From: Dendrophyllia cribrosa
Lineage: Eukaryota; Cnidaria; Anthozoa; Scleractinia; Dendrophylliidae
Direction of reading: 5' to 3'
NCBI GenBank assembly: GCA_024195265.1
Contig: JAJLRJ010000008.1
Coordinates: 42,701,873 to 42,765,872, forward strand
DNA: 64,000 nt
The translations under genes were made by a program, and so were the position numbers. Below are positions 36,309 through 53,049 of the stretch, in pieces. Every line of letters begins with the position of its first letter. The stretch's first letter is position 1. Under the pieces are notes generated by a model. That model was not told the DNA's origin and did no database searches. It saw only the letters and a program-made list of their open reading frames with translations.

Positions 36309-36870
36309 AGTAGTTAAGGGTGGCTACCGGGGGAATAGTCAAATTTCCCTAACCACGCCCAATAGGGGATTTTGACTAGAATTTTTTTTATATAGGGGAT
36401 TTTGACTAGAATTATTTTTCAATTTTTTTTCAAATTTTTTCAAATTTTTTTTTGAAGTTTTTTTTGAATTTTTGATTTATATAGGTGATTTTGAGTATCG
36501 AATTTTTTCAAAAAATTTTTTGATTTTTTTCAAAATTTTTTTCAAATTTTTTTTTTGGGGAAGTGGTCAAATTTCCCTGTGTACGATCCTCCTGGGGAAT
36601 GAATTGGGGAAGTAGTCAAAATCCCCAATATGAAAGAAGAAGCCCACACAAGGGTGAAAGTTCAATAACATGTTTAATGAAAATCATCAACAAGAAAAAA
36701 TTTCAAGGATTAACGCTTTCTTCTTTTCTTGAGTAACTTTCCGATCGGGGTTTGAGCAAAATTTATCTGGATGTTATGGTGATAAAAGCGCTTATCATCG
36801 AGCGCTGAATAATTCTTTTAACAGAACATAATACAAGCAATCACTTGGTAATTAGACCGCATGAAAACCT

Positions 36871-37224
36871 TCAGGGCAAAAAATTCAAAGTCAGACATTT
36901 TCCGCGAAGACGTGTCGTAAATCGGGTTCTCTTTCTCTTTCGATTCCATCGCATGTTAGAACGAAAATCATCTTGGCTCGCCTCCGGGACATTCCGTGAA
37001 TGAAAAAAGAAAAAAAAATAGTTTGAATTCAATACTCGCAGAAAACTCGTTTGAAAGAAGAAACGTGAAAGTATTTTAAACAAATCAAATTTTCCTCGCA
37101 TGACGAATCGAGCAAAGACAAACAAACAAACTACGAACCTGCGGAAAGATTTTGCAGTAAAAAAATCCCTTTCTTTTGCCGAAAAGGTTGTCCTTTTTCC
37201 AAAGCCACCTCTTAAACCTTCCAC
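36871..37224 (-). CDS. TIR-encoded outward frame, left copy, unassigned
   Basis: An open frame of 117 codons, beginning at a non-ATG codon, has an identical twin at 52129-52482. It contains an aromatic-rich middle and a basic end (RWNRKRKRTRFTTRLRGK). A TCTTTCCGCAG tract followed by GTTCGT in the middle could be splice-like, so this might be an exon joined to the preceding frame. Weakly supported. Confidence 0.25.
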   Translation of the reverse strand: MEGLRGGFGKRTTFSAKERDFFTAKSFRRFVVCLFVFARFVMRGKFDLFKILSRFFFQTSFLRVLNSNYFFFFFHSRNVPEASQDDFRSNMRWNRKRKRTRFTTRLRGKCLTLNFLP

Positions 37225-37267
37225 GAGGAGAGTTGTCTGATTTTTTAGCGAGGAACTATCTTTGTTT

Positions 37268-37447
37268 TCACGCCGTGAAAAAATCTTTCTTGTCTTTCTC
37301 AGAACAGCGTTTTCCTGGAAAAACCCGGCTTACGCCATCACTTGGCTCCAGACCACGCGCGAACCACCAGCGGGACCTGGCTCGACGATAAAAGAGTTTA
37401 AATTGAAATCGTCTCGTCCCAAGTGTTTGCGATAATCTTGCACCCAT
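37268..37447 (-). CDS. TIR-encoded outward ORF, left copy
   Basis: On the minus strand a 59-codon frame beginning MGARLSQTLGTRRFQF and rich in Arg and Lys lies about 90 bases after a TATAAAGG box (about 37535). The same frame with the same protein occurs in the right repeat. Nothing like it is known to me. It may be a real short gene present twice, or sequence kept similar only because the repeats are. Confidence 0.35.
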   Translation of the reverse strand: MGARLSQTLGTRRFQFKLFYRRARSRWWFARGLEPSDGVSRVFPGKRCSEKDKKDFFTA

Positions 37448-37887
37448 TACTGTTTTCTTCTGCCGAGCAGCTCGTCTGGCTTTGCGTTGTAAGCGAATGA
37501 GAGAAGAATGAAAAAAGAACAAAGCGCGAGCCTTTATAAAGGGAAAAAAAGCTGACGCCACCCCTCAGGCTACGAGGAAGCCCTTCGCTGACGTCTCTTG
37601 TCTTTGAAGGGCAATTTGTTTTGTCAACCAAGCGTTTCCAGAAAATGAGAGTGCTTTTTGTTTTGTGTTTTTCTTGCTTGTTTTTCGTTTTCTTGTGACC
37701 TTGGCGAGAGTCTACACTACCAGTGGGCCTTTTCTCGTTACTTGTGGCCACAAAGGAGTCTTGCCTTGTTTGATTTGGTTCATCAGACAATGAACCACGC
37801 AGATTGTTTTTTTTTTCATTGCGTTTTTGACTTTTTTTTTGATGAATTCTTATTCAAAAAACCGGTTCGCTGACGCCATTTCTTCAT

Positions 37888-37896
37888 TATAAAAAT
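37888..37896 (+). promoter_or_regulatory. TATA-like box of the zinc-finger gene
   Basis: TATAAAAAT lies 71 bases before the ATG at 37959 and just inside the left terminal repeat. Confidence 0.45.
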
Positions 37897-37958
37897 CGCT
37901 CCCCAAGTTCATTTTCACTCATTCTCCAGCTGAAGAACAAGAAGAAGAAAAGAAGAAG

Positions 37959-38777
37959 ATGCCGAAGAAGATGCCATTTGAAGAAAAAGTTTACGTAGCC
38001 CCGAAGCGGAAATCCACCAAACCTGCGAAAGTTCCTGCGGGAAAGAAAAGAAAGAAAGAAAATGTTAAAGATATCATTAACAAAGCTAAAGATGTCGTAG
38101 AGTACATCACAATTGAAGCAGAAGGAAGAGCAAATGAAGCACCATTGGCATCAATAGCCCCGTTTATACCTGACGCTCACACAGAAGTGAATGAACCTCT
38201 TATTCAAGATGTGGATCTAAACGTGGAACAACAAAATGCTGTCAATGCAATTGTTGACAGCATTGGTCACATCACCCAGATGCAAATTGAGGATGCAGCT
38301 TCCAACAAGAACATTTTTTTATTCTGCCCCTTTCATCTTGGACATTTGGAACAGAGAGTCAGCTCCCCAAACGGGTTTTGTTATCTGAAATGCCCTTATC
38401 AAGATTGTTGTGTGATCTGCGCAAAAGACAAGGCAGAGCTTTACATGCAAACTGTTCACGCTCAGTTGAATAGGGACATTAAGGAAAACTGGAAGCCTTT
38501 GCGTTGTTTCTGCAATGAAGTCTTGACCCTGAAGCAAAGCAATTCTGAGAAGAATCCAGGTCGAATCTATCTTGCTTGCAGAAAGAGAGAGTGTAAATAC
38601 TTCCAATGGGGTGATCTCCCTTTGAACGAGAAAAACGGAGACCATCATTTTAACCTTGATCCCTTTCCTCTCCCCATGAAAGAGTATGCAGGCAAAACCT
38701 TGATCAGAGATGCATGCTGCGCTTCAAACAAGAAGAGCAAAAGAAACCCGCAGAGCAGACGGAATCAGCGAGAGTGA
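37959..38777 (+). CDS. GRF-type zinc-finger protein of the Polinton
   Basis: The 272-residue protein starts with a Lys-rich basic region (residues 1-45). An acidic-to-neutral middle leads to a first possible Cys/His cluster (C123, H126, C145, C150/151, C154). A GRF-type zinc finger follows: C183-x-C185, NPGR at 199-202, C207, C212 and FQWGD at 215-219. GRF fingers bind single-stranded nucleic acid in topoisomerase III, APE2 and NEIL3. It is the first gene inside the left repeat, with its own TATA-like box, and is followed by AATAAAA at 38908. It is a candidate early regulator or replication cofactor. No enzymatic motif is seen, and the function is inferred only from the finger. Confidence 0.75.
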   Translation: MPKKMPFEEKVYVAPKRKSTKPAKVPAGKKRKKENVKDIINKAKDVVEYITIEAEGRANEAPLASIAPFIPDAHTEVNEPLIQDVDLNVEQQNAVNAIVDSIGHITQMQIEDAASNKNIFLFCPFHLGHLEQRVSSPNGFCYLKCPYQDCCVICAKDKAELYMQTVHAQLNRDIKENWKPLRCFCNEVLTLKQSNSEKNPGRIYLACRKRECKYFQWGDLPLNEKNGDHHFNLDPFPLPMKEYAGKTLIRDACCASNKKSKRNPQSRRNQRE

Positions 38778-39439
38778 TCCAAGAAGCCTTTCCAAACACT
38801 TTTGGCTCTAGTCAGCCAAGTCACCCAAAATGTACTACTCTTTTTTTTAAAAAAAAAAACGTTTGAAAAAACTTATCATTATTGCTATAAAAGGTTTTAA
38901 TTTTTTGAATAAAAATGAAACTGGGCAAAAAGGTTGTTTGATCTCTTGTGGAATTGGGGTCGATGGCGAGTCATGCCGTGGGTATGTTCCTCTTTGTATA
39001 GACGCTATAAAGAAGGGTTGAAACCTATTCCAATAGAAGATGTTCCACTGACAAACAATTGTTGTCGAAATACAATGATTCCAAAGCTATAGGCAGTTTA
39101 AGAGGAGTGGCACGATTTGCATCCTCCCAGGGAATTCCGCTGGGTCGAGCCAAACGATTGTTACAACAACATCCGCAAGAATTTAAACATGTTTGATGTC
39201 CACCATGTTTTGTAATCCCACGCCACTTTGAAAACCAAGACTAAGACAACAGAGGTTTCATTCACATTGCACCAACGTTTTACTCAATAAAAAAAGTAAA
39301 GAGAAGAAAACATGGCTGCGATTGACAACAATGGCAAAAAAAAAAAAAACATTGATCAAACGGTTTTTTTTTTTCATTGAGCTTGAGGCTCGTGGGTCGT
39401 TTGTCCTCTCATGCAAACTTCGACGACCGTCAGTTTTTT
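38778..39439. other. inter-gene stretch with a possible gene relic
   Basis: This contains the AATAAAA signal at 38908, homopolymer tracts, and a short plus-strand open frame ending at 39196 that reads GSLRGVARFASSQGIPLGRA and then KRLLQQHPQEF. That phrase looks like a helix-turn-helix of the kind found near the N-terminus of Polinton integrases, but it is unattached to any catalytic domain. AATAAAAAAAG occurs at 39285. Confidence 0.4.
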
Positions 39440-39976
39440 TTATGGATCTAATCCCAAGTCCTTGCACGAGGAGCTGTCATCGCTGTCCACCTCATCTGTC
39501 CAATTATGACCTAATTTCAGGCGCTGCCAGTCAAACACTTCATCGATGTTGACGTGCGTCAATCCTAATAGTTCATAGGTAAAGAACAGATCTTGACGTC
39601 GGAAGGATAAAATTTCTTCCAAAATGCGTACGGTGACCACATCGGTTGACAACATGTTGCGCACAAATTGACAGTTTTCAGGGGTCCAGATCGGGTGTAC
39701 GATACCATTTTCATGCAGCTGATGCACCCATTCGTCGTACACATCTGGAAAAGTGACTTGTCGAAGAGCCCTACTAATGTTAGCTCGTAGATCGTGTAAG
39801 AACAACAAGGCTTCGGGTGACCAAATGGGGTTATCGGGCGGTTTCAATACCACATGATGTTGCATGCATTTTAATAATGCTACAATCCACCAACGCCGCC
39901 AAGGGCGAGCATTCAGACTCTGCGTAAACTCGCTCTGAGAGTCCACTACCCCTTGACTCGTGAAAGGAGAAGTCAT
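39440..39976 (-). CDS. unrecognised 178-residue protein, minus strand
   Basis: This is the only inward Polinton gene on the minus strand. The ATG at 39976 is preceded by TATATAAGG (40016-40008), a well-placed TATA box. The protein is rich in Trp, His and Leu and repeats a phrase: NPIWSPEALLFLHDLRANI and HPIWTPENCQFVRNML, about 45 residues apart. The C-terminus is acidic (DEVDSDDSSS). It is probably helical and soluble. It faces away from the next gene, with which it shares a divergent promoter region. I recognise no family and assign no function. Confidence 0.7.
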   Translation of the reverse strand: MTSPFTSQGVVDSQSEFTQSLNARPWRRWWIVALLKCMQHHVVLKPPDNPIWSPEALLFLHDLRANISRALRQVTFPDVYDEWVHQLHENGIVHPIWTPENCQFVRNMLSTDVVTVRILEEILSFRRQDLFFTYELLGLTHVNIDEVFDWQRLKLGHNWTDEVDSDDSSSCKDLGLDP

Positions 39977-40128
39977 GTTTGGTGTAAAAAAGACTAAACG
40001 TTATCCTTATATAGAAAGCGCGAACTGTCAGTCCCACCAAAATCTTCTATAAAAAAAAGAAACGACAAGGTATCAAAACAAATGGTAACACGTTAACAAA
40101 GAACACTTCAGTGCGCAACATTAAAAAA
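39977..40128. promoter_or_regulatory. divergent promoter region
   Basis: Between the two divergent genes lie a minus-strand TATA box (TATATAAGG, 40016-40008, about 32 bases from its ATG) and a plus-strand TATAAAAAAAA at 40047. This is probably the switch between the left gene and the rightward gene set. Confidence 0.5.
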
Positions 40129-40512
40129 ATGTCGAGAACGTCTGACGCCCAGATCGCTTTAAAAGATTGGTTGGGATGTGCCATTCTCTTTTTAGAAAGA
40201 GTCGACCCCCATTCTTTGTTGGACTTGAGCGATGATGCGTTACAAGAGCTAGAACCGGACATAGCGTTTGCGCAACTGGTGACCAGAAACAAAGAGAAGA
40301 ACGAACCGTTTAGTTTGCTTCATTTGATGGCTTATTTAAGAGTTATGCGTCAATGTTTGTCCCTGGACGCTTACCGTGAACATCGTCGTTGGATATTTAA
40401 GCAACAACAAGCATACATACCTAGTTTTGGACGTTTTGTGGCTCAATTTACAGTGAGTCTGACCCGGCGATTGATCCCATTGGTGGTGCGCACCTGTTTG
40501 TTCCCCATCTAA
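40129..40512 (+). CDS. unrecognised 127-residue helical protein
   Basis: I chose the ATG at 40129 over an upstream GTG in the same frame because a TATA-like box lies at 40047. The protein appears all-helical and ends in a hydrophobic, basic segment (LTRRLIPLVVRTCLFPI). The stop at 40510-40512 lies eight bases before the integrase ATG, so the two may share a transcript. No family is recognised. Confidence 0.65.
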   Translation: MSRTSDAQIALKDWLGCAILFLERVDPHSLLDLSDDALQELEPDIAFAQLVTRNKEKNEPFSLLHLMAYLRVMRQCLSLDAYREHRRWIFKQQQAYIPSFGRFVAQFTVSLTRRLIPLVVRTCLFPI

Positions 40513-40520
40513 AAAAAAAA

Positions 40521-41639
40521 ATGAAGAAGGCCGAGCAGATGAGTCCTTTGGAAGACTTGTATTTGGATCTGGAGAGTCCTTACGCGTTGAGTGGAAATTT
40601 CAAGGAATTGACCAAGGTGGCCCGCGACACGTTGGACGTCTCACCCAGCCAGGCGCAAACGTATTTACAAGGAGAACCCACTTTCACGTTACACCGTCCT
40701 CGTCAGGTACGATTTCCACGCAGCAAGACGGTCGTGCCTCCGCAAGTGGATTATACCTGGCAGGCGGATCTTGTGGAAATGCAGGATGCCAAACTCATTG
40801 CCCAAAACAAACGCACCCGATACCTACTGACGGTCATCGATGTGTTGTCCAAATATGCATGGGTCATTGCCTTAAAAAGCAAGAAAGGCAAGGCCACGGC
40901 AGATGCCTTTCGTTATTTGTTGGAGAATTCAGGAGGACGTCAGCCCGTCAACTTGCAGACGGATCAAGGGAAAGAATTCTACAACCAACACATGAAGCAA
41001 TTACTGGACGAGTATAACATTCACCACTATTCCACTCGAGGTGAACCCAAAGCTGCTGTGGTCGAACGTTTCAATCGCACTTTGAAGGAATGGATGTTCA
41101 AGTACATGACAGCTCGCAACACCCCCAAATATTTGGAGGTCTTACCCTTGTTGGTGGACAAGTACAACACGCGCATTCACAGCCGCACTCAAATGGCCCC
41201 GGCCGATGTCACTGACGACAATGCCTCGGTGGTCTGGAAGCGGTTGTTCAAACCCACCCCTGCCTTAGACCCTTACAAGTTTCGAGCGGGGGATTTTGTG
41301 CGCACCTCAAAACCCGTCAAGGGTAAAAAGAGTGCCTTTTCCAAGAGTTATCGGGGTAATTGGTCGCAAGACGTGTACACGGTGACCGATCGTCAACGGT
41401 CCTTGTACGATGGTGTGAATTATTATAAGTTGGACACTTGGAAAGGTGATAAAGTACCTGGACGATTTTATGAACCTCAACTGCAAAAAGTACGAGCTCT
41501 ACCCAACCAATGGCGGGTGAGTAAAAAGCTTAAATACAAGGGACGCGGACCCACTCGTCAAGTGTTAGTTAACTGGCAAGGACTTGCTCCCGATTATCAA
41601 ACGTGGATACCCGTCAAAGAGTTAAAAAAGTCCTCGTAA
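40521..41639 (+). CDS. INT: Polinton integrase (DDE, chromodomain-like tail)
   Basis: This 372-residue protein is a retroviral-type integrase. The catalytic residues are D83 (WQADLVEM), D148 (LQTDQGKEFYN) and E182 (VVERFNRTLKEWM), with 33 residues between the last two. It resembles the transposon-derived F54H12.3 integrases of Polintons. No HHCC zinc finger is visible in the N-terminus. Residues about 331-370 (VLVNWQGLAPDYQTWIPVKE) look like a chromodomain, which in related elements may steer insertion to chromatin. The frame is open throughout. It would cut and join the ends that begin AGTAG, generating the GCGTG duplication. Confidence 0.93.
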   Translation: MKKAEQMSPLEDLYLDLESPYALSGNFKELTKVARDTLDVSPSQAQTYLQGEPTFTLHRPRQVRFPRSKTVVPPQVDYTWQADLVEMQDAKLIAQNKRTRYLLTVIDVLSKYAWVIALKSKKGKATADAFRYLLENSGGRQPVNLQTDQGKEFYNQHMKQLLDEYNIHHYSTRGEPKAAVVERFNRTLKEWMFKYMTARNTPKYLEVLPLLVDKYNTRIHSRTQMAPADVTDDNASVVWKRLFKPTPALDPYKFRAGDFVRTSKPVKGKKSAFSKSYRGNWSQDVYTVTDRQRSLYDGVNYYKLDTWKGDKVPGRFYEPQLQKVRALPNQWRVSKKLKYKGRGPTRQVLVNWQGLAPDYQTWIPVKELKKSS

Positions 41640-41643
41640 AAAA

Positions 41644-44025
41644 ATGGCCAAACCCTGGGAAATGGACGATGATTTTTTGCTGTTTCTGAATAGTGGGGAT
41701 GTGGGCACGGAACCCCTCGAACCCGGAGAGACCACCGTGCGCAGTGCGTTCTGACAAAGGTTGGAGATTCCATTGACGCTCACCGACCAGTGGCAAGTTG
41801 CCCTTTTGAAACTGTTGTACACCAATTCTTACGGGAACACTGTGTTGAAATCGTCGCAGGATTACCATGTGCGTGTGGGGAGCTCGGATGGATCGGTTCC
41901 CACTCGATCAATGGCGCTGACTTCGCACAAACACTTCACGCACGCGGCAGAATTGCTTGGCGATTTGGTGCAGAAGATGGGATGGTACGTGATACCCACC
42001 TTGTCGGGCGGTCAACATCATTACGGACAACTCCACATGGAATCTCCTGGCACCACGGACGAAAATTTTCCCACAAATCCCAAACTGGATCTGTTTCGTC
42101 CCGACCTGGTGCGTGAATTTTTGCAAAGGATCGAAAACACTTATCGCGTGAAACAAGTCGCACTCCCTACGCGCTTCAATCTGATCGAATATTACCTAGG
42201 ATTCGCCCTCCTGAAACTCATGGGTTTAAGGAGGGATTACATCTGGTTAACTAGAGCTAGTCCATCCAGACCCAGGACGCATTATTCACTCCATCTGTGG
42301 GCGCAGGGTCAGTACAATCTAGGGGAATCGTTGGCTCTGTTGATGGGATTTTTGGAGCCCGATCCAGATCGGCCGGGCCAGACGCGCATTGTGGCTCACA
42401 ACACCGTCTACGCGGACACGGGAGAAGGTACGCAAGCCGATTGGGTGGTTAGTCGTTTGGATACGCATCACTTTGGCATCGAGACGGAAGATTTTCTGTT
42501 GGGAGGCGTACGCATCAAACTCAACACTGCCGTCGAGCGGTTGCACTACACGTTTGGCAAAAGAGCCGTCTTTGACATGGGGGCTTGGGTGCGCGACCCG
42601 TCTCCCTTGTTACCCTACGCGCGACAATCCCCCGTGACGGTGGTCACTACGGAACCCGGCAAGTGGTTTCTGCAGGCCCGAGAAGGGGTCAACGTCGATT
42701 TCAAAAACGGTCTGGAGACAGTGATGGGTACCCCACAACTCAAAGCTCCTTCTCGGGTTAAGGGATTCGGGGCCTGGTTGGCTTTGCCCAGTTTGGAGAC
42801 ATCCCTGGCCCAAACAAACACCCACTTGTCTGACGTGGACCTCACGCGATGCAATACCGAAGTAGATGTGGTGGAATTTAGCCCCGTGGGCGACAGACAA
42901 CGCCGATTGCTGGCCACTCTTCCCCTCTCACCTAGCAGCGATTACGGTCTCACGGTCGAATACGACCCGCAGCATTTGGATTTCAGACCGTTGGCAGGAC
43001 CCACGCAAAATCTGAGCGAGTTGAGAGTGCATTTAAGAAACGCTGAAGGTTTGGGTATACCATTTTACACGGGTCTCACCGGTGTTTGGTTGTACTTTCG
43101 CAAAGGAGGAACGAAAAACACACAACCCTTGCAATCGGCCGGCATGAGTTTTGCTGGGGGACGTCGAGTGACTTTGGAAAGTGACGATCAGAAGGACCTC
43201 TTCCCGAACAACACCCCATCGCGTTTCAGGTTGAGATTACCCGAACAGTGGACCTTGGATGCCACATGGGAAGTGGCTCTGGTGCAATTGTTGATGCCTC
43301 ACACGTTTCACAACGTTCAAGATCGCCAGATACAGTGTTCTGTCAACTACCCGTCCGGCAAACAAGATATTTTTTTGGCGGGCGGGCTCTACGTGACCTT
43401 GACGGATGTTGTGTTGGCCCTTCATCAAGCCATCGAAACGGAGACACCCGTTTCAGATGCTGGCACGACCGCTCGTGTCCAACTGCAGTTGGACGAGAAA
43501 GGATTTTACCAGTGGACCTTCCCCACGAATGATTTTTCGCTGTACTTACCCAGCTGGTTGGCTCGAGTTTTAGGATATCTTGATTGGGAATCGTGGACGG
43601 TCCCGTTTTACTACAAGTCCGACGTGCGTCATCCCACAGTGGAAATCACCAGCACGGACACCCAGACTGGGCGCCCGACCGAAGTGGAAATCACACGCTC
43701 GCATACCATGGCCTTACCGGCCGATCATCGCGTGTGGAGTTTTGTCTCCCCGAACTCTTTCCAGAACGTCTACGTGCATTGCAACGTGGCCGAACCCGTG
43801 TACGTGGGATCGCAGATGGCTAAAGTGGTCTTAATCCATGGCGTCAACCCTCAGAAGGGGGTCTTGGAGGACGTGCCCATTCCACACTTGATCTTTTCGC
43901 GATTGAGTCATTTCACTTTTCGAGACCTCGAAATCGATATAAGAGACAACTTAGGTCGTCCCATCCCATTTCAAGGAGGAAACGTCACAGCTGCTCTGTA
44001 TTTCCGACAACGTAAATTGCCTTAA
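41644..44025 (+). CDS. penton-type capsid protein, two fused units, in-frame TGA
   Basis: An ATG at 41644 opens a frame that meets TGA at 41752 after 36 codons and then stays open for 754 codons to 44025 in the same frame. Counting from 41761, two homologous units are visible. Unit 1 starts LTLTDQWQVALLKLLYTNSY (residues 5-24) and ends LRVHLRNAEGLGIPF...LYFR (about 421-447). Unit 2 starts LPEQWTLDATWEVALVQLLM (about 489-508) and ends LEIDIRDNLGRPIPF...LYFR (about 722-750). Both signatures belong to the Polinton minor capsid (penton) protein, usually a single unit. The TGA lies where unit 1's first strand should begin; if it is not read through, translation would need a later ATG such as 41911. 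Confidence 0.78.
41752..41754 (+). other. in-frame TGA in the penton gene
   Basis: The stop separates a 36-codon leader (from ATG 41644) from the long penton frame without changing frame. It is compatible with CpG decay of an arginine codon, with programmed readthrough, or with a sequencing error. Confidence 0.8.
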
Positions 44026-44038
44026 AAAAAAAGTGCCA

Positions 44039-44686: not shown

Positions 44687-44690
44687 AAAG
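44682..44690 (+). promoter_or_regulatory. TATA box of the major capsid gene
   Basis: TATAAAAAG is 55 bases before the capsid ATG and overlaps the end of the upstream gene. Confidence 0.65.
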
Positions 44691-44736
44691 GAGCATCCAC
44701 GGGTGGTCGACCATTTGACTAGACGTCACCGTCAGC

Positions 44737-46167
44737 ATGTCACAAGGGTCAGATGACACAGACAACAACAACAACAACAACAACAACGGTGGGATCATCG
44801 TGCAGGCCGATCAGGGTCTTTACAATTATCGCCCTCCGCGAGAAATTGATGCCACAGAATACAAATGGCACTTTGAAGATGTGAAATCTCAGACCACTTC
44901 GTCAAACCCTCTCCAGTTTCGTTTGGCCGATCGACCTTACCCCTTCTGCCCCAGCGAGATCGAACTGCATCTTAAAGTGTACTTCAAACTGGGCTCCACA
45001 AAAGCACCCTTGAATGACTTCACCACCAACCAAGCTATTGTAGGCCCAGTGAACAATTTTGGGTACAGTTGTATCCGTCAAGTTCGTTGTCGAGTCAACA
45101 ACAACGAAACTGAGTCCACGGCTGGGGTGAATTTGGCATACCGAGAATATTTCAAGACCTTGTTGGAAGCAGATCCCTGGGACGAAGCCAGCCGCCTCAA
45201 GCGACAAGGATGGTACAAAGATAGCGCAGGACAGATGGATAAATGGGGAGGCCTAGCCACTCATAATCCTGGAGGGGTTCAACGACAAAAGATCTGTGTC
45301 AATGACACGGGCAAGTTCGAATTCAACGTGTGCCCTTTGCCTTGTAATTTTTGCCAGATAGAACAGAACGTCCCACCCAACACCAGAGTAGAATTTGAGA
45401 TCGAGTTCAATGACCCCAAGTTCTGTTTGATGTCCATGACCCTGGACAAGTCCACTGCAGCTGGGGCCGTGAACAACACGGCTAGTTTTGAAGTCTTGGC
45501 CCAAGAGTGTTTTCTCCGTGTGTTTTATCGCGTTCCCAATGATATCATCATGAAGTACATGGAAGAACAAGTGGAAAAGACCACGGTGGCCAACCCCCTC
45601 TCCTTCCCCTTCAGGCGCATGCGATGCGAGAACAGGTACATTCCATCAGGCGTCAGCCAAGTGGAGTTCAACGATGTGTTTCAAGGACGTTCCCCGCGCT
45701 TGTTTTGGTTGGTGGTGTTGGAAGATGCGCGTTATCAGGGAGAATTCAATAAAAATCCCTTTGACTTCAAAGCCAATTTTTCAGGATTCAACATCACCAG
45801 TGCCGAGTGCACAGCCAACGGAGCCCCAGTGAACAAAGCCAAAGTGGATCTTACCAACAAATACGAGATCTATGATTTGTTGCTGAATGCCTCAGGCAAA
45901 AAGAGACGCGATGCTTACCTGTTGGATCCCGATACCTTTGAAAAGGGTTTCTACTTTGTACCCTTTGATTTGACGGCTGTCCAAGATGGAGGTGATTCTG
46001 TCACCCCGCAGTTGCAAATGCTGATCAACGTCAGGCTGGGGTTTTCTACAACGACAGGTGCAGCATTGCAAGCTTTGTTCTTGTACAACACAGATGAGAG
46101 TCTGTTGCAGATTGACAACAGAGGAACCACTCAAGGCCCAGTGCTCTTGTCCGATGCCTTGGTGTGA
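44737..46167 (+). CDS. MCP: major capsid protein (double jelly roll, F54H12.2-like)
   Basis: The 476-residue protein has the features of the Polinton capsid protein known from worms as F54H12.2. An early 'FRLADRPYPFCPSEIELHLK' strand pair is followed by NLAYREYFKTLLEADP and WYKDSAGQMDK (about residues 131-170), and the strands continue to the end. The residues after the ATG include a polyasparagine run encoded by AAC repeats, which is probably a disordered arm and prone to length change. The length is usual for the family. Trimers of this fold build icosahedral shells. A TATA box lies 55 bases upstream and AATAAA signals follow the stop at 46202 and 46219. The frame is open with no damage. 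Confidence 0.88.
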   Translation: MSQGSDDTDNNNNNNNNGGIIVQADQGLYNYRPPREIDATEYKWHFEDVKSQTTSSNPLQFRLADRPYPFCPSEIELHLKVYFKLGSTKAPLNDFTTNQAIVGPVNNFGYSCIRQVRCRVNNNETESTAGVNLAYREYFKTLLEADPWDEASRLKRQGWYKDSAGQMDKWGGLATHNPGGVQRQKICVNDTGKFEFNVCPLPCNFCQIEQNVPPNTRVEFEIEFNDPKFCLMSMTLDKSTAAGAVNNTASFEVLAQECFLRVFYRVPNDIIMKYMEEQVEKTTVANPLSFPFRRMRCENRYIPSGVSQVEFNDVFQGRSPRLFWLVVLEDARYQGEFNKNPFDFKANFSGFNITSAECTANGAPVNKAKVDLTNKYEIYDLLLNASGKKRRDAYLLDPDTFEKGFYFVPFDLTAVQDGGDSVTPQLQMLINVRLGFSTTTGAALQALFLYNTDESLLQIDNRGTTQGPVLLSDALV

Positions 46168-46315
46168 AAAGAGCTGGAAAAAACATTATCTTTTTGTAAC
46201 AATAAAAAAAAAGAGGTCAATAAAAATGTCACTTGCCTATTTCATGAACTTTAGATGCCTTGTTTGAAAAGAGCTTTTTTGTAACAAGAAAAAAAAAAGA
46301 GTTTAATAAAAATGT
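46166..46315 (+). terminator. duplicated polyadenylation region after the capsid gene
   Basis: TGTGAAAAGAGCTGG...TTTGTAACAATAAAAAAAAAGAGG (46164-46216) is followed by a similar block, TTGAAAAGAGCTTTTTTGTAACAAG...GAGTTTAATAAAAATG (46263-46312). Each has AATAAA-type signals, so the region looks like a tandemly duplicated 3' end. Confidence 0.6.
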
Positions 46316-46369
46316 TTTATCTTTTTTGGTGATGTTTGTGTGTGTCACTCTCCTGTTCCTCGGGCCCCC

Positions 46370-46378
46370 TATAAAAAA
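46370..46378 (+). promoter_or_regulatory. TATA box of the 78-residue protein gene
   Basis: TATAAAAAA lies 40 bases before the ATG at 46410. Confidence 0.65.
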
Positions 46379-46409
46379 GGGCACAAGTCCTCCTTGGTCA
46401 GTTTTGAAA

Positions 46410-46646
46410 ATGCCTTGCAGAAAGAAAAGAAGAAGAGTATCTCGCAAAAAGAGGTACCACAGAGGGGGTGCTAGGTTCGTGAGACGACCCACCCTGCAGG
46501 ATAAAATAGCCGAGGGAGCCAGTATGTTTTTATCAGGACCTGCCCCTTCGTTTGCTACGGCAGGCTTGTTCCTGGGCAAGCAAGCATTCAAAGGCATAAA
46601 AGACAACGTGGAGCATTTTTTAAAGGCCAAAAAGCGGCGGAGATAA
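46410..46646 (+). CDS. small basic virion protein (78 residues)
   Basis: I chose the ATG at 46410, 40 bases after a TATA box, over an upstream in-frame TTG. The protein begins with a very basic arm (MPCRKKRRRVSRKKRYHRG), has a Gly/Ala/Phe-rich helix (SGPAPSFATAGLFLGKQAF) and ends KAKKRRR. It resembles core proteins of adenovirus-like particles in composition. It probably binds DNA and the capsid. Confidence 0.65.
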   Translation: MPCRKKRRRVSRKKRYHRGGARFVRRPTLQDKIAEGASMFLSGPAPSFATAGLFLGKQAFKGIKDNVEHFLKAKKRRR

Positions 46647-46683
46647 AAAAAAAAAAAGATCCACCTTGTCAAAAAAAAAAAAG

Positions 46684-46995
46684 ATGGTCAACCCATCCCG
46701 TGCCAGACGAGACAGCGCCCAAAGACGAAGAAATCGTCGGATGACAAGGCAGGGAGGTATTCAACGAGGAGGTTTCGTCCCCATTGTGGTGGATTTTAAG
46801 AAAGGGATCCAAGTGACACGGGACGCCATCGAAGCCATGCAACAACCCATCGACCACGACAAGGCCCGACGAAACGTGAACAGGTACAAAGCCGAGTATG
46901 CGTCTTATAAAAGACGCGGTGGAAACAAAGGGTTCACGCGTTGGGCCCGCGACAAAGGTTACGCCAAAAAAAGTGATGCCTGTTGCCTGCAGTAA
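46684..46995 (+). CDS. basic protein of 103 residues, unassigned
   Basis: The ATG follows a run of A. The protein has Arg-rich ends (RRDSAQRRRNRRMTRQGG) and a middle hydrophobic segment (FVPIVVDF), with charged helices afterwards. The stop at 46993-46995 is two bases before the protease ATG. A TATA-like GCATAAAAG occurs at 46594. No family is recognised; a virion or assembly role is inferred from position. Confidence 0.6.
   Translation: MVNPSRARRDSAQRRRNRRMTRQGGIQRGGFVPIVVDFKKGIQVTRDAIEAMQQPIDHDKARRNVNRYKAEYASYKRRGGNKGFTRWARDKGYAKKSDACCLQ
46906..46912 (+). promoter_or_regulatory. TATA box before the protease gene
   Basis: TATAAAA lies 92 bases before the ATG at 46998, inside the preceding gene. 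Confidence 0.45.
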
Positions 46996-46997
46996 AA

Positions 46998-47549
46998 ATG
47001 CATGACACGTTGCAATTGCGAAAAGCGTGTCGAGGCGATGACAACATTTCAAAATACTTTTGGGACGTGTTTGGTGCGGATGAAGGAGCCTGTCAACCCG
47101 TCGAGTACCCCAAGTGCGCCATATGGAACACGGACCCCATACGCTTACCCGGCCAACATTGGATAGCGGTGTTTTGGGCGAGTCAAGACCACGGAGAATT
47201 CTTTGATAGTTACGCGCGAGCGCCATCCTTCTACAACGCAGCGTGGCGTTGTTTCGACCTTTTCCGTCACATTCCACAAGAGCTACAAGGAACCAACACC
47301 GATGTGTGCGGAGATTATTGTTTGTACTACTTATTTCATCGTTGCCGCGGCAAACCCATGACCCAAATTGTTCGACCCTTCTCACACACGGATCGTGTCT
47401 ACAACGATACGGCCGTGGTGGAACGAGTACGGGAAGAATTCCCGAGTTTACGACATCAACACCTGGCAGGGGGACTGTATGATGAGGATGGACGCCCCAA
47501 CCAGATGTGTCGGATCAAACGGTTGAATCTTTGCAAAAGAAAGGCATAA
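46998..47549 (+). CDS. PRO: adenain-like cysteine protease
   Basis: The 183-residue protein fits the adenovirus-type maturation protease family. Active-site positions are H54 (GQHWIAVF), D70 (FFDSY), Q97 (LQGTNTD) and C104 (VCGDYC). The spacing from Gln to Cys (seven) and the sequence around it match adenain, and H54 has the same number. It is a little shorter than adenain (about 204). Such proteases trim capsid and core proteins during virion maturation. The ATG at 46998 is chosen; upstream codons in frame belong to the preceding gene. It sits directly before the ATPase gene, as in many Polintons. Confidence 0.9.
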   Translation: MHDTLQLRKACRGDDNISKYFWDVFGADEGACQPVEYPKCAIWNTDPIRLPGQHWIAVFWASQDHGEFFDSYARAPSFYNAAWRCFDLFRHIPQELQGTNTDVCGDYCLYYLFHRCRGKPMTQIVRPFSHTDRVYNDTAVVERVREEFPSLRHQHLAGGLYDEDGRPNQMCRIKRLNLCKRKA

Positions 47550-47551
47550 AA
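47545..47551 (+). promoter_or_regulatory. TATA-like box of the ATPase gene
   Basis: CATAAAA lies 46 bases before the ATG at 47591, at the end of the protease gene. Confidence 0.5.
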
Positions 47552-47590
47552 GGAAGAACGGTGTTTTTTACGGGGTGACAGGTTAAAAAC

Positions 47591-48298
47591 ATGGAAACGG
47601 AAGATGCTCCCTCTTGTTATGATCCACGTTTCAGGGTCCCGGGTAACATGCAGATCGTGGGTCCTACCTTGAGCGGCAAGACAACCTTCTTGTACAAGTT
47701 GGTCAAAGATGCTCCATGTTACTTTCGGGAAGACGACAGATCCCCTTGTTATTTTCAAAAAATCGTGTATTGCTATGGATCAGCCTGGCAACCGATTTTT
47801 AACCAATTCCAAGAGATGGGCGTGCAATTTAACGAGGGCTTGCCAGACAACGTGGAAGCACTCTTTCCACCCGAAACACGCCCCGGTTTGATCATCATGG
47901 ACGATCTCATGCACGAAAGCAGCAAGTCACCTCAAGTGACCCAACTGTTGACCAAAGGAACGCATCACTTGGGTCTCTTTGCGATTTTCCTGTCGCAGAA
48001 CCTCTTCCATTCGGGCAAGGAACAAGCTGGTCAAAATCGCAATTATCATTACACCGTTCTCTTCAAAAATCCTGCGGATACCCGTTACATCAAGATGCTG
48101 GGCAATCGTTGGTTGGGTGATTCAGAGGCATTTTGGCCCATCTATAAAAGGGCCACAGAGAGACCTTTTGGCTATCTATTGACCGACCATCATCCTCGAA
48201 CCGACGACGCCATTCGTTTTCGTACCCATCTCTTGATAGACGATCCCGAACCTCTTACCGTGTTGCAACCCGCTCAAAAGAGAAGACACAAAACGTGA
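47591..48298 (+). CDS. ATP: packaging ATPase (FtsK/HerA, A32-like)
   Basis: A 235-residue P-loop ATPase. Walker A is GPTLSGKTT (residues 24-32), Walker B is LIIMDD (100-105) and a conserved SQN occurs at 135-137, the usual 'sensor' of A32-type genome-packaging ATPases. The length and the compact layout fit the Polinton protein, which pumps DNA into the capsid. The ATG at 47591 follows a TATA-like CATAAAA by 46 bases. The stop lies five bases before the next ATG. Confidence 0.92.
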   Translation: METEDAPSCYDPRFRVPGNMQIVGPTLSGKTTFLYKLVKDAPCYFREDDRSPCYFQKIVYCYGSAWQPIFNQFQEMGVQFNEGLPDNVEALFPPETRPGLIIMDDLMHESSKSPQVTQLLTKGTHHLGLFAIFLSQNLFHSGKEQAGQNRNYHYTVLFKNPADTRYIKMLGNRWLGDSEAFWPIYKRATERPFGYLLTDHHPRTDDAIRFRTHLLIDDPEPLTVLQPAQKRRHKT

Positions 48299-48303
48299 GA
48301 AAA

Positions 48304-48714
48304 ATGTCTTTCCGTCGTCGAGATTGGAGAAGACAGCGAGGACGAGGCATGTTGGAGGATTTTAGCAAATCTCGCGCCACCCGCACCAATCAAATCAGAG
48401 CGCGATGGAATAAGGAGAGAGCCGACATGCATCGACGCTTGCAAAACGAAAGCGGTAAATTGCAAGAAGGTGCCCGTCGCCTCCAGTGGATGTTGGAAAA
48501 CCCCAACCCCAGTCTGGGTGAAAGGGTCGTGGAGAAGGGACGTCAAACCCAATTCAAAGCCAAGAATGCTTTCAAACCAGGCATCAAACGCCCCAAACTC
48601 AAAGCAGGAACGAAAAGAGCCCTGATGGCTGGGGCGATGGGAGGTGTCTTGGCCCCCGTAGTGGGAACTTTAATCGCCAAAGCTATAAAAAAGACGAAGA
48701 AGAAGAAATCATAA
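48304..48714 (+). CDS. basic protein with glycine-rich helix and lysine tail (136 residues)
   Basis: The ATG at 48304 directly follows the ATPase gene. The protein is Arg-rich at the start (FRRRDWRRQRGRG), has a charged helical middle, then a hydrophobic helix (LMAGAMGGVLAPVVGTLIAK, about 109-128) and KKTKKKKS. This helix-plus-lysine pattern recurs in the neighbouring genes. It may be a membrane-active or core virion protein. A TATAAAA at 48143 lies inside the ATPase gene. Confidence 0.7.
   Translation: MSFRRRDWRRQRGRGMLEDFSKSRATRTNQIRARWNKERADMHRRLQNESGKLQEGARRLQWMLENPNPSLGERVVEKGRQTQFKAKNAFKPGIKRPKLKAGTKRALMAGAMGGVLAPVVGTLIAKAIKKTKKKKS
48684..48692 (+). promoter_or_regulatory. TATA box of the 194-residue protein gene
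   Basis: TATAAAAAA lies 44 bases before the ATG at 48728. Confidence 0.6.
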
Positions 48715-48727
48715 AAAGAAAACAGTT

Positions 48728-49312
48728 ATGCAGTCCCTCATTGTCATTCCCACCTATGGAACATGGCCCACCATGCCACGCATCGCTCGAGCGCCTTGGT
48801 CGCAAGGGGTTCCTTTTACCCGTTACGTGGTTGGGAAAGGGATACAATTGCAAGATGCAAGCGATCTCACCACGGGTCGGGCGGCCTGGCAAGCACAGAT
48901 CCGTCGCAGTCAAAGAGGTCGCGGGATGGATGGCAGCCAGAGATCAAGAGCCATGGCCAAAGCCTATGCCAACCGACCCGCTCAGAAGGTCGATCGTTGG
49001 GTCAACAGAAAGATGTGGCGCTTGCGAGATAAGATGACTCCCGAAACCTTAACAGGAAAATTAACAGCAGGTGCTGCATTAGGAGGAGCTGCGGCGGCCG
49101 TGCCAGCAGCGTTTTTGGGTGCCTTAACAGCCAAAGTCTTCACCCAGAAGAAGAAAAAGAAGAAGAAGAAACAAGAAGGAGGGTTTTTAACGCTGCTAAG
49201 CAGTGCTGCCAAAGTGGGATACGAGGTTGGAAAGGGAAAAGATTACAAGCGTATGGGAGCCAAAGGAGCCACGGGGCATTATAAAGCGCATCGCAAACCC
49301 TGGGAAGTTTAA
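48728..49312 (+). CDS. 194-residue protein with Ala-rich helix and lysine tract
   Basis: The first ATG after the TATA box opens this frame. A neutral start is followed by a basic region (RRSQRGRGM), then an Ala/Gly-rich hydrophobic helix (LGGAAAAVPAAFLGALTAK, about 116-135), eight or nine lysines, and an EGGFLTLLSS segment. It shows the same helix and lysine pattern as the neighbouring proteins. No family is recognised; a virion role is inferred. Confidence 0.7.
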   Translation: MQSLIVIPTYGTWPTMPRIARAPWSQGVPFTRYVVGKGIQLQDASDLTTGRAAWQAQIRRSQRGRGMDGSQRSRAMAKAYANRPAQKVDRWVNRKMWRLRDKMTPETLTGKLTAGAALGGAAAAVPAAFLGALTAKVFTQKKKKKKKKQEGGFLTLLSSAAKVGYEVGKGKDYKRMGAKGATGHYKAHRKPWEV

Positions 49313-49318
49313 GGAAGG

Positions 49319-49325
49319 TATAAAG
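49319..49325 (+). promoter_or_regulatory. TATA box of the 119-residue protein gene
   Basis: TATAAAG lies 40 bases before the ATG at 49359, just after the preceding stop. Confidence 0.65.
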
Positions 49326-49358
49326 AGAGAGTAGTCCTCATCCGCAAGTACATTCACC

Positions 49359-49718
49359 ATGCCAACCGTTCGCAGAAAGAAAACAAGACAGCGTGGAAAA
49401 GGTTTGGGCGCCGACATGGCCGTGGCCACGGCAGCTCCCATTGTGGCCAATCTCTTAAGTCAAGGGATTGAACACGCCATGGACAAAGGACCAGAGGTAC
49501 TCGGCAAGGTAGCCGAGCATGGCAAACGTGGTGTAAAGTGGCTCTCGAAACGCTTCAACCGTTTGAGAAAAAAGAAACCTCAGAAGGGCGGTAGAAAAAA
49601 AAGAACATCCTTGCCCCGTTGGGCTCAAGAACCTGGTCTGTCCAAACTCGTAGGTCTACCCAATCATTTACCGTCACACGTGCAATTTCAACTTGAAAAT
49701 TCCACGACCTCGGTGTAG
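49359..49718 (+). CDS. basic protein of 119 residues with Ala/Val helix
   Basis: Starting at ATG 49359, the protein has a basic arm (VRRKKTRQRGKG), an Ala/Val-rich helix (ADMAVATAAPIVANLLSQGI, about 18-37) and a second basic segment (RLRKKKPQKGGRKKRT). The same order of basic arm, weakly hydrophobic helix and basic tail appears in the 78-residue protein. No family is recognised. Confidence 0.7.
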   Translation: MPTVRRKKTRQRGKGLGADMAVATAAPIVANLLSQGIEHAMDKGPEVLGKVAEHGKRGVKWLSKRFNRLRKKKPQKGGRKKRTSLPRWAQEPGLSKLVGLPNHLPSHVQFQLENSTTSV

Positions 49719-49730
49719 GCAGGCGAAGGA

Positions 49731-49740
49731 TATAAGAAAG
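49731..49740 (+). promoter_or_regulatory. TATA-like box of the 207-residue protein gene
   Basis: TATAAGAAAG lies 43 bases before the ATG at 49774, which supports that start. Confidence 0.5.
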
Positions 49741-49773
49741 GAGGAAACTGCAGGACACACACAGTTTTTTGTG

Positions 49774-50397
49774 ATGGCCCCACCTAGAGGCGCTTGGCGT
49801 GCTTTTCCTGTCAATTCAAATTTTTCGCCCACTTCTGCTGCAGAGCGACGAGCGAACTCGGGATTTGATGCCCCAAGAAAGAAGGCCACTACCGATCGTT
49901 TTGGGAGACCCAACCGAGCCGTGAAAGCGAGTATTGCCTTGAAAAAAGGAATCAAGACAGCCAATGCGGCGACAGCGGGAGCGATTTTAGCGGCCACTTT
50001 GGGCGGTGTGCTTGCAAGTCAACTCTCGAAAAAGAAAAAAAAGAAGAAGAAGAAGCAAGAACAACAAGGTGCAGGCAAAAGATCAAGGGGATGGCGCATG
50101 CAAGAACAAGCCGACTGGTTATCGGGGTTGACGGATCGCCGGACGTTTTCGGAGGACATAAAAAGAGCCAGCAACGAACAATTGCGAGCTCTGACCGATC
50201 TGATACGTAATCTCTACGACAACGTGATCCAAGTACCCGCTTACGTCAAAACCCCTCTCCTGGGTAACAGGAAAACGATTCGACGCATCAGTGCACTGAC
50301 GACGCCTTTGCACGAAAGAAAGAGGCTCTTAAGAAGAGTAGGAGGAGAAAAACTCGTTCCCTTTTTGCAAGCCGGACTAGACGCCTTGTCGTCATGA
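49774..50397 (+). CDS. 207-residue protein with Ala-rich helix and lysine tract
   Basis: The ATG at 49774 follows TATAAG by 43 bases; the upstream in-frame TTG is rejected. The first part contains an Ala-rich hydrophobic helix (ATAGAILAATLGGVLASQL, about 67-85) followed by nine lysines. The C-terminal half is a separate, probably helical domain (residues about 105-207). It is the third gene with the same helix and lysine tract. Its stop overlaps the ATG of the next gene (ATGA at 50394-50397). Confidence 0.7.
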   Translation: MAPPRGAWRAFPVNSNFSPTSAAERRANSGFDAPRKKATTDRFGRPNRAVKASIALKKGIKTANAATAGAILAATLGGVLASQLSKKKKKKKKKQEQQGAGKRSRGWRMQEQADWLSGLTDRRTFSEDIKRASNEQLRALTDLIRNLYDNVIQVPAYVKTPLLGNRKTIRRISALTTPLHERKRLLRRVGGEKLVPFLQAGLDALSS

Positions 50398-51302
50398 CGG
50401 ACAAATACGCTCGAGAGATGATGTTGGTGCCCAAAGATCCCCCCTGGATGAAACCGCCGGTTCCCTTTCTACCCGATTCATCCCGTCAATGGGGAAGGGG
50501 TGAACAAACACCCCCCGACCCCAACGAAGCCTACTGGAAACGTCAATTCTTGACGGACCAATTGGTCAATGCCCCTCGTTTGGATCGCGTCATGCGTGTC
50601 ATGGATGCCATGAAGAGCGTGGAAGGTGAAGGGCAACCGCCCAAGTTACCTTCGTACGGAAGTAAGAGCAGCGAATACTTTCGACTTCAGAATCAACTAC
50701 GACACATGATAGACCCCCGTCAGACCTCTGCGCTCTTGAGAAGACCTCCCCCTCTTTCGGCGGCGGAAAACCAAGCCCGAACGGATGATATTATTCCCCC
50801 CAAACCACCCCTTGGATCCACACTTCCACCACCTCCCAAGTCATTTCAAGAAGCGCACCAGCAATCAAAGAACATTGACAAACAATTGGAAAACTTCATC
50901 AACGTGGCTAAACAGAATTTGGACGAGGCCAAGCGCGCCGGCAATAATCCTAACGAGGTGAAAATGGCTGATCTAGATTGGCAAGTGGCTCAAAAGTCTG
51001 CTGAAGTCATACGAGAGTTGGACGATCAATTAAACTCAGAAAACTATGGTTTGCCCTTCAGCGACCTCAAATACTGGACCACGGACAAAGACACATTCGA
51101 TGCTGCCGTGGAAGCACACAAAAGAGAGCTGCTGGAACGTCGTGACAAACTGTGGGGTCAACTGGAAACAGAATATCAAGAGCACAAGGAAAGCATGAAA
51201 CAGAGAGAAAAGCAAAGACAAGCCAAGATAGAAAACATTATTCAAAAAGGAAAAGGGGTCGCCTTGAAACGACACAAACCTCGCGGTTGGGTGCAAGAGT
51301 AA
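50394..51302 (+). CDS. 302-residue protein, Pro-rich and coiled-coil
   Basis: The ATG overlaps the previous stop. The first half is Pro-rich (PPPLSAAEN, PPKPPLGSTLPPPP, about residues 115-150). The second half is charged and helical (SAEVIRELDDQLN, QLETEYQEHKESMKQREKQR), probably a coiled coil. It is the last gene before the right repeat and is followed by AATAAA at 51383. It might be a scaffold or tail-like protein, but I cannot name a family. Confidence 0.7.
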   Translation: MTDKYAREMMLVPKDPPWMKPPVPFLPDSSRQWGRGEQTPPDPNEAYWKRQFLTDQLVNAPRLDRVMRVMDAMKSVEGEGQPPKLPSYGSKSSEYFRLQNQLRHMIDPRQTSALLRRPPPLSAAENQARTDDIIPPKPPLGSTLPPPPKSFQEAHQQSKNIDKQLENFINVAKQNLDEAKRAGNNPNEVKMADLDWQVAQKSAEVIRELDDQLNSENYGLPFSDLKYWTTDKDTFDAAVEAHKRELLERRDKLWGQLETEYQEHKESMKQREKQRQAKIENIIQKGKGVALKRHKPRGWVQE

Positions 51303-51581
51303 GAAAGTTGTTCAGAAAAAAGAGACGTTTAAAAGTTGTCACTATTTAAATTGTTGACCTGTTTTCACAACAAGATTGTTGTAATAAAGTTGCTTTAAAA
51401 TGGTCAAAACACGTGTGCTCTTTTTCTTGCACTAACCGGTTTTTTGAATAAGAATTCATCAAAAAAAAGTCAAAAACGCAATGAAAAAAAAAAACAATCT
51501 GCGTGGTTCATTGTCTGATGAACCAAATCAAACAAGGCAAGACTCCTTTGTGGCCACAAGTAACGAGAAAAGGCCCACTGG

Positions 51582-51633
51582 TAGTGTAGACTCTCGCCAA
51601 GGTCACAGGTTCGATTCCCGTTGGGGTCCCAAA
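51582..51633 (+). other. tRNA-like segment within the right TIR
   Basis: GGTTCGATTCC is an exact pol III B box followed by CGTTGGGGTCCC; upstream TGGTAGTGTAG is a weak A box. The B-box part is missing from the left repeat. The acceptor end does not pair, so a functional tRNA is unlikely. Confidence 0.45.
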
Positions 51634-51905
51634 AAAATCAACAAGAACATTCGAAAACAAGAAAACGAAAAACAAGCAAGAAAAACACAAAACAAAAAGC
51701 ACTCTCACTTTCTGGAAACGCTTGGTTGACAAAACAAATTGCCCTTCAAAGACAAGAGACGTCAGCGAAGGGCTTCCTCGTAGCCTGAGGGGTGGCGTCA
51801 GCTTTTTTTCCCTTTATAAAGGCTCGCGCTTTGTTCTTTTTTCATTCTTCTCTCATTCGCTTACAACGCAAAGCCAGACGAGCTGCTCGGCAGAAGAAAA
51901 CAGTA

Positions 51906-52085
51906 ATGGGTGCAAGATTATCGCAAACACTTGGGACGAGACGATTTCAATTTAAACTCTTTTATCGTCGAGCCAGGTCCCGCTGGTGGTTCGCGCGTGG
52001 TCTGGAGCCAAGTGATGGCGTAAGCCGGGTTTTTCCAGGAAAACGCTGTTCTGAGAAAGACAAGAAAGATTTTTTCACGGCGTGA
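51906..52085 (+). CDS. TIR-encoded outward ORF, right copy
   Basis: This 59-codon frame (MGARLSQTLGTRRFQF) faces the right end of the element and follows TATAAAGG at about 51814. It is the exact counterpart of the frame at 37268-37447. Protein composition is basic, with a Trp/Arg-rich middle (RRARSRWWFARG). No family is recognised. Confidence 0.35.
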   Translation: MGARLSQTLGTRRFQFKLFYRRARSRWWFARGLEPSDGVSRVFPGKRCSEKDKKDFFTA

Positions 52086-52128
52086 AAACAAAGATAGTTC
52101 CTCGCTAAAAAATCAGACAACTCTCCTC

Positions 52129-52482
52129 GTGGAAGGTTTAAGAGGTGGCTTTGGAAAAAGGACAACCTTTTCGGCAAAAGAAAGGGATTTTTTTACTGCA
52201 AAATCTTTCCGCAGGTTCGTAGTTTGTTTGTTTGTCTTTGCTCGATTCGTCATGCGAGGAAAATTTGATTTGTTTAAAATACTTTCACGTTTCTTCTTTC
52301 AAACGAGTTTTCTGCGAGTATTGAATTCAAACTATTTTTTTTTCTTTTTTCATTCACGGAATGTCCCGGAGGCGAGCCAAGATGATTTTCGTTCTAACAT
52401 GCGATGGAATCGAAAGAGAAAGAGAACCCGATTTACGACACGTCTTCGCGGAAAATGTCTGACTTTGAATTTTTTGCCCTGA
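52129..52482 (+). CDS. TIR-encoded outward frame, right copy, unassigned
   Basis: This is identical in translation to the frame at 36871-37224. It starts at GTG, so an exon or a chance frame remains possible. Confidence 0.25.
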   Translation: MEGLRGGFGKRTTFSAKERDFFTAKSFRRFVVCLFVFARFVMRGKFDLFKILSRFFFQTSFLRVLNSNYFFFFFHSRNVPEASQDDFRSNMRWNRKRKRTRFTTRLRGKCLTLNFLP

Positions 52483-53044
52483 AGGTTTTCATGCGGTCTA
52501 ATTACCAAGTGATTGCTTGTATTATGTTCTGTTAAAAGAATTATTCAGCGCTCGATGATAAGCGCTTTTATCACCATAACATCCAGATAAATTTTGCTCA
52601 AACCCCGATCGGAAAGTTACTCAAGAAAAGAAGAAAGCGTTAATCCTTGAAATTTTTTCTTGTTGATGATTTTCATTAAACATGTTATTGAACTTTCACC
52701 CTTGTGTGGGCTTCTTCTTTCATATTGGGGATTTTGACTACTTCCCCAATTCATTCCCCAGGAGGATCGTACACAGGGAAATTTGACCACTTCCCCAAAA
52801 AAAAAATTTGAAAAAAATTTTGAAAAAAATCAAAAAATTTTTTGAAAAAATTCGATACTCAAAATCACCTATATAAATCAAAAATTCAAAAAAAACTTCA
52901 AAAAAAAATTTGAAAAAATTTGAAAAAAAATTGAAAAATAATTCTAGTCAAAATCCCCTATATAAAAAAAATTCTAGTCAAAATCCCCTATTGGGCGTGG
53001 TTAGGGAAATTTGACTATTCCCCCGGTAGCCACCCTTAACTACT

Positions 53045-53049
53045 GCGTG
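53045..53049. repeat. Polinton target duplication, right
   Basis: GCGTG directly follows the last base of the element, matching 36304-36308. Confidence 0.65.

Follow-up and report, generated by a model that had tools for sequence, protein, structure and literature searches.

A Polinton family without DNA polymerase B in Dendrophyllia cribrosa and its probable dependence on polymerase-bearing relatives

Polintons are termed self-replicating on account of the polymerase that they bring with them, in the wording of the available excerpts of PMC6431247, and a Polinton that carries none raises the question of how it is copied. Such an element lies in a 64,000-nt stretch of the Dendrophyllia cribrosa genome (assembly GCA_024195265.1, contig JAJLRJ010000008.1, 42,701,873-42,765,872 of the forward strand), referred to below as the window, where it occupies 36309-53044 and measures 16,736 bp. 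We favour, with fair confidence, a reading in which the window family is a helper-dependent, virion-coding Polinton that outnumbers its autonomous sisters and would draw on a helper in trans; a helper Polinton was among the options raised in an earlier note on this DNA.

Absence of PolB from the element and its copies

The window element presents the outline of a complete Polinton. It runs from AGTAGT to ACTACT between inverted repeats that open with AGT repeats, as Polinton/Maverick ends do, and its terminal repeats of 1388 bases differ from each other by 1 mismatch. The earlier note had described a complete layout, and the repeats, the target duplication, the integrase, the capsid protein (by its fold), the protease and the ATPase bear this out, whereas the penton is unproven, as neither Pfam nor PHROGs yields a match to it. 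Gene candidates within the repeats leave no gap wider than 662 bases (38778-39439), in agreement with the statement that no large unassigned gap exists.

The absence of a polymerase, also claimed earlier, holds. Pfam searches of 20 window frames (16 gene candidates and 4 others) up to an expectation value (E) of 1 returned no DNA polymerase B (PolB), no other polymerase and no primase or helicase as a replacement, and tblastn with the PolB of a sister element described below (E up to 10, alignments longer than 30 amino acids (aa) or with E < 1e-3 being reported) found no match, which rules out a PolB hidden elsewhere in the window. Nor is there a second P-loop helicase, as had been noted: among frames of at least 60 aa the single Walker A motif, at 47660, sits inside the packaging ATPase. 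Because PolB is absent despite the Polinton ends, integrase and virion genes, the element lacks the defining polymerase and is, as judged from its sequence, a Polinton derivative rather than a self-synthesising Polinton.

This absence recurs across the genome (627 Mb in 22 contigs, of which 14 of 27-62 Mb sum to 625.5 Mb; a stony coral would be expected to have about this number of chromosomes). The capsid gene is present in at least 89 copies, 94-100% identical, these being the best 89 of 233 candidates scored. Listed PolB matches are the best 78 of 2182 candidates in a family search, with one row per locus for 78 loci among the matches listed, and the best 31 of 6924 in a search with the sister PolB; 10 of 144 rows for GRF, the zinc-ribbon gene at the left end of the element, and 6 of 36 sister-PolB rows were left out as second pieces of the same loci. 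On this basis a close GRF gene lies within 15 kb of 87 of the 89 scored capsid copies, with no PolB listed nearer than 12 kb to them; the remaining 2 have a listed PolB and no close GRF, and none has both or neither. Close GRF loci number 101; for 87 of them the capsid list has a copy no more than 15 kb away, for the other 14 it has none.

Of the left halves extracted for 20 copies, 18 share one left module with unchanged gene order, the other two being L030, with an insertion, and L032, the C3 copy, without the module. No PolB was found by tblastn in any of the 20, and among 36 extracted loci only two right parts, those of the sisters, match. The GRF frame is open over at least 256 aa in 16 of 18 PolB-less left halves, and PolB-less left cores are ~95.5-99.7% identical to the window. 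The integrase stretch differs by a mean of 0.59% over 171 pairs among 19 PolB-less copies (L030 left out), a low divergence that may be read as recent activity of the PolB-less form. These genome-wide capsid copies, left halves and GRF and PolB counts rule out a one-off deletion in one copy, and the earlier view that the element is not a fragment but a complete-looking element in an animal-like genome is supported. In L030, a PolB-less copy on C5, the insertion of ~5.8 kb between the left module and the integrase holds a 1641-aa frame, perhaps of a retroelement, and is flanked on both sides by ~10 repeated element bases.

Near-identity of the copies would also be expected if they were dead and owed their spread to segmental duplication or to errors of assembly, with no transposition, a reading that we consider very improbable. 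Each of the three copies for which both ends were read has its own target duplication, of 5 bp in the window (GCGTG) and in the C18 sister (ATAGG) and of 6 bp in a PolB-less C12 copy (GATGTA), and for these the reading is refuted. The scored capsid copies are moreover spread over 14 large contigs, 85 of 89 capsid frames have no internal stop, and gene frames have ratios of nonsynonymous to synonymous differences (pN/pS) of 0.16-0.51, two overlapping control frames reaching 1.84 and 1.12. The pN/pS values and intactness counts include the PolB-bearing C3 copy wherever the gene is present.

PolB-bearing sisters, termini and the source of the polymerase

Two sisters carry PolB near the capsid gene, on C18 and C3, and in both PolB lies antisense to the capsid gene at the right end, beyond the last late gene. 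The earlier note held that related copies with the same termini and a PolB lying between the integrase gene and those of the capsid would mark this element as a simple deletion; none of the 20 left halves has PolB there, but the two sisters, whose core is nearly that of the window element, bear it at the other end. The proposed search for further copies in the same genome thus showed window-type gene content to be widespread while also uncovering these sisters. The C18 sister (43022626-43043150, 20,525 bp) has an open PolB of 1501 aa (Pfam 1.8e-39) and, at its left end, a different 140-aa frame in place of the gene of the window. In the parts read its homology to the window spans 40011-51428, both limits being intergenic, and includes the 127-aa protein (frame in L035), the late frames at 49774 and 50394 and late genes ~97% identical overall; where C18 runs on to PolB, the window from 51434 repeats the left end of its element in inverted orientation. 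The window form appears to combine a right-end loss with a different left-end module. The stretch from the C18 PolB to the right end (L033:6000-9001) is dense in short repeats of direct orientation and may be a control region.

The integrase stretch of C18 is 0.20% from that of the PolB-less copy L014 and 3.2% from that of the C3 sister, and in the integrase tree C18 falls among PolB-less copies, the nodes closest to it having modest support (0.77-0.89). Because the C18 integrase is nearest to PolB-less copies, the PolB-less and PolB-bearing forms appear to recombine, which suggests that they meet in the same cells. A third PolB, 20 kb upstream of a capsid copy on C17 and 12.9 kb past its GRF gene, probably lies outside that element.

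The ends of the window element are identical to those of the C18 sister over 105 bases on the right and 81 on the left; the window copy thus shares its termini with a PolB-bearing relative of the same genome, as non-autonomous elements do. A terminus search, from which 11 of 46 rows were left out (inner repeats and short pieces of the same ends), pairs 12 complete elements: 3 with PolB (20,525, 20,791 and 16,657 bp), 2 with GRF (16,736 and ~16,705 bp) and 7 short ones of 4,347-8,523 bp which share the terminus at 90% or more. The short elements are known from their termini alone and have no PolB, GRF or capsid among the matches listed; such short relatives with the same ends point to mobilisation in trans. 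In the PolB-less C12 copy (47461729-47478582, 16,854 bp), which agrees with the window at 99.7% over its left core, the two ends are 99.4% alike over 471 columns, yet unlike the ends of the window. Because ends agree within a copy and differ between copies in these two PolB-less copies, one end may be copied onto the other during replication.

Helper dependence is favoured because the ends are shared with the sister and short relatives exist. The PolB of a sister, or of some other Polinton from the same PolB clade, would recognise the AGTAGT-type ends and, acting in trans, copy the element that lacks PolB into linear extrachromosomal DNA; the element's own integrase would insert the copy with a 5-6 bp duplication, and the capsid, protease and ATPase genes could package either form. 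As it is ~3.8 kb shorter and continues to make virion parts, the PolB-less form would come to outnumber its sisters.

A looser variant, in which PolB from other Polinton families serves and the ends need not match, seems improbable to us. PolB is abundant in the genome, the best 78 of 2182 candidates having been scored; four stop-free PolB frames, 92% identical to the sister PolB, are located at a distance from the 89 capsid copies; and among 18 left ends read from PolB-less copies none has exactly the sister's terminus. The agreement of the window ends with those of C18 over 81-105 bases, and the seven short elements sharing them at 90% or more, speak for matching ends.

Replication independent of PolB would place the function in the left module, with GRF, the 178-aa antisense gene and the long repeats recruiting the host replication machinery. 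The module and listed PolB are mutually exclusive among scored capsid copies (87 against 2), the 178-aa gene is constrained (pN/pS 0.30, intact in 18/18), left-module proteins have database relatives (GRF P0001 at 46%, 178-aa P0026 at 42%), and the repeats of the window element measure ~1.4 kb, whereas those of the C18 sister align over ~230 bases. Of the 33 loci with divergent GRF homologues (28-51% identical), 20 nevertheless have PolB within 25 kb (18 distinct PolB loci), as do 11 of the 15 with at least 43% identity; one C12 element of 16,657 bp with matching termini holds both GRF and PolB, the latter with stops. GRF therefore looks like an ordinary Polinton gene. Pfam gives no polymerase, primase or helicase match, and PHROGs points to single-strand-binding proteins weakly and at chance level (E 0.057 and 0.34). 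We judge this reading unlikely, and quite doubtful its extended form, in which the family has no polymerase at all and is copied by host DNA replication, the left module and repeats acting in origin function and end repair and the PolB sisters being rare recombinants.

The suggestion that a left-end gene encodes an unrecognised replication protein is weakened in the same way: because divergent GRF homologues sit beside PolB, GRF is an unlikely substitute for the polymerase. Their distribution is instead consistent with an ancestor that had both GRF and PolB, the window family having lost PolB and the C18/C3 type GRF.

Several observations weigh against helper dependence. Sisters with PolB make up 2 of the 89 scored capsid copies, and one of their two PolB genes, on C3, contains a stop; beside right halves that were not read, the absence of PolB rests on the best 78 of 2182 and best 31 of 6924 candidates. 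Among 18 other PolB-less left ends (L030 being left out of the 20 left halves) none has the exact terminus of the window element and 5 come within 4 edits of its first 20 bases; for PolB-less copies besides those of the window and C19, any match to helper ends would go no further than the general AGTAGT type. In the C18 sister one end is only 91.9% identical to the other over 235 columns, GRF-type elements are only 2 of the 12 paired, that on C19 without a listed capsid match, and the 704-aa gene is intact in only 9 of 18 full-length copies. Helper-dependent replication is, finally, a reading of DNA sequence.

Genes and surroundings of the window element

The features of the element are collected in Table 1. 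The capsid gene owes its identity to its fold, since Pfam and PHROGs searches are silent: the model (predicted template-modelling score 0.74, mean predicted local distance difference test score (pLDDT) 70.8) finds as best matches in a structure search the capsid proteins of Sputnik (3j26, 7.8e-14), mavirus (6g44, 5.5e-12) and iridoviruses, which identifies a double-jelly-roll major capsid protein, as Polintons/Mavericks have. Its relatives at 63-64% identity are named from the coral Oculina patagonica, none was confirmed among viral and prokaryote contigs, and a distant capsid query, P0016, finds two extra divergent loci in the same genome (C6:2552920 and C16:38086339). The 704-aa protein, a putative penton, has no match in Pfam or PHROGs; the 215-aa lysine-rich protein is presumably of virion type.

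The 272-aa GRF protein is a probable DNA-binding accessory protein. Its C-terminal tail differs from copy to copy, so that its pN/pS of 0.37 comes from 6 pairs, with full-length alignment in 3 copies only, and a structure model from 3 input sequences (pLDDT 36.9) is too poor to judge. The 178-aa antisense frame is probably a real gene, P0025 (98%) and P0026 being its database relatives. The integrase has a Pfam rve match of 7.4e-15 and a weak chromodomain match (4.1e-4, below its cut-off). Sequence searches against solved structures gave no convincing match.

Table 1. Features of the window element (window coordinates) and first bases of the short elements that share its terminus
Feature	Position	Strand	Remarks
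Target duplication, left copy, GCGTG	36304-36308		equals 53045-53049
Left terminal inverted repeat, starts AGTAGT	36309-37696	+	
Inner extension of left repeat	37694-37867	+	174 bases, 94% to 51434-51607
272-aa GRF zinc-ribbon protein	37959-38777	+	Pfam Zn_ribbon_GRF 1.7e-5, 25.3 bits, cut-off 25.9
178-aa protein	39440-39976	-	intact 18/18 full-length copies, pN/pS 0.30
127-aa protein	40129-40512	+	intact 17/19, pN/pS 0.51
Integrase (rve), chromodomain-like C-terminal stretch	40521-41639	+	Pfam; intact 17/19, pN/pS 0.46
704-aa putative penton/minor capsid protein	41911-44025	+	pN/pS 0.26, intact 9/18 full-length copies
215-aa lysine-rich protein	44039-44686	+	pN/pS 0.16, intact 16/19
Major capsid protein, double jelly-roll	44737-46167	+	fold match; at least 89 genome copies
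104-aa basic protein	46332-46646	+	no family match (Pfam, PHROGs)
103-aa basic protein	46684-46995	+	no family match (Pfam, PHROGs)
Adenain-type protease	46998-47549	+	Pfam Peptidase_C5 2.8e-5, above cut-off
Packaging ATPase, Pox_A32 type	47591-48298	+	Pfam 1.2e-4, 22.0 bits, cut-off 22.8
Five tandem late frames	48304-51302	+	starts 48304, 48728, 49359, 49774, 50394
Junction	51428-51434		homology to PolB-bearing sisters stops at 51428; inverted left-end copy starts at 51434
Inner extension of right repeat	51434-51607	-	
Right terminal inverted repeat	51657-53044	-	
Target duplication, right copy, GCGTG	53045-53049		
Short-element first bases	C5:19226684, C18:41698104, C4:16396568, C12:45038497, C17:20875280, C12:50136082, C21:4210285		terminus search

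A tRNA-like stretch near 51600 was considered and set aside, ARAGORN and Rfam (up to E 1) finding none. Directly beyond the right end of the element lie inverted repeats of 38-39 bases resembling miniature inverted-repeat transposable elements (53372-53555). Elsewhere in the window a 935-aa open frame (1957-4764) resembles a reverse transcriptase of Penelope type whose end is GIY-YIG-like; a frame on the opposite strand at 561-1250 repeats its C-terminal part, and a frame at 34990-35472 we take to resemble a Tc1/mariner transposase fragment.

Relation to known systems

Animal Polintons/Mavericks (adintoviruses) have AGT-repeat ends, inverted repeats, an rve integrase with C-terminal chromodomain and adenovirus-like virion genes, according to the available parts of PMC8097293 and PMC11071296, and those of vertebrates have a 6-bp target duplication in the excerpted text of the former. 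The window element likewise has AGT-repeat ends, inverted repeats, an rve integrase and adenovirus-like virion genes; it differs in the absence of PolB, in a duplication of 5 bp, a length also seen in the C18 sister (6 bp in the C12 copy), and in repeats of ~1.4-1.6 kb. Polinton-type virion genes without PolB occur also in Polinton-like viruses, Tlr1 and PolB-less meldviruses, for which the excerpts of PMC11071308 and PMC11071296 give as replication genes a large SF1-helicase protein in Tlr1 and a primase-SF2 helicase with a tyrosine recombinase in Meld19810; the window shares the PolB-less virion genes, but a replacement replication protein was not found in it. Compared with non-autonomous DNA transposons, as generally defined in the accessible part of PMC6431247, the element keeps its cis sequences and probably needs the enzymes of autonomous relatives, yet it retains an integrase and recognised virion genes, lacks PolB and has a different left module.

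The right end of the window element, an inverted copy of its left end, together with its probable helper dependence, invites a further comparison. Satellite viruses depend on a helper, and defective adenovirus genomes have duplicated ends; the window element differs from both in coding its own virion proteins and in its dozens of integrated copies, and it probably works as a satellite. Titles and abstract openings in the literature searched, which includes few subscription papers, mention no family of animal Polintons that has an integrase, lacks PolB and is accompanied by sisters bearing it. Here, within one genome, a polymerase-less form outnumbers its PolB sisters by 87 to 2 among scored copies while keeping its virion genes, so that a possible trans action of Polinton PolB and the possible existence of satellite-like cheaters among animal Polintons become directly testable.

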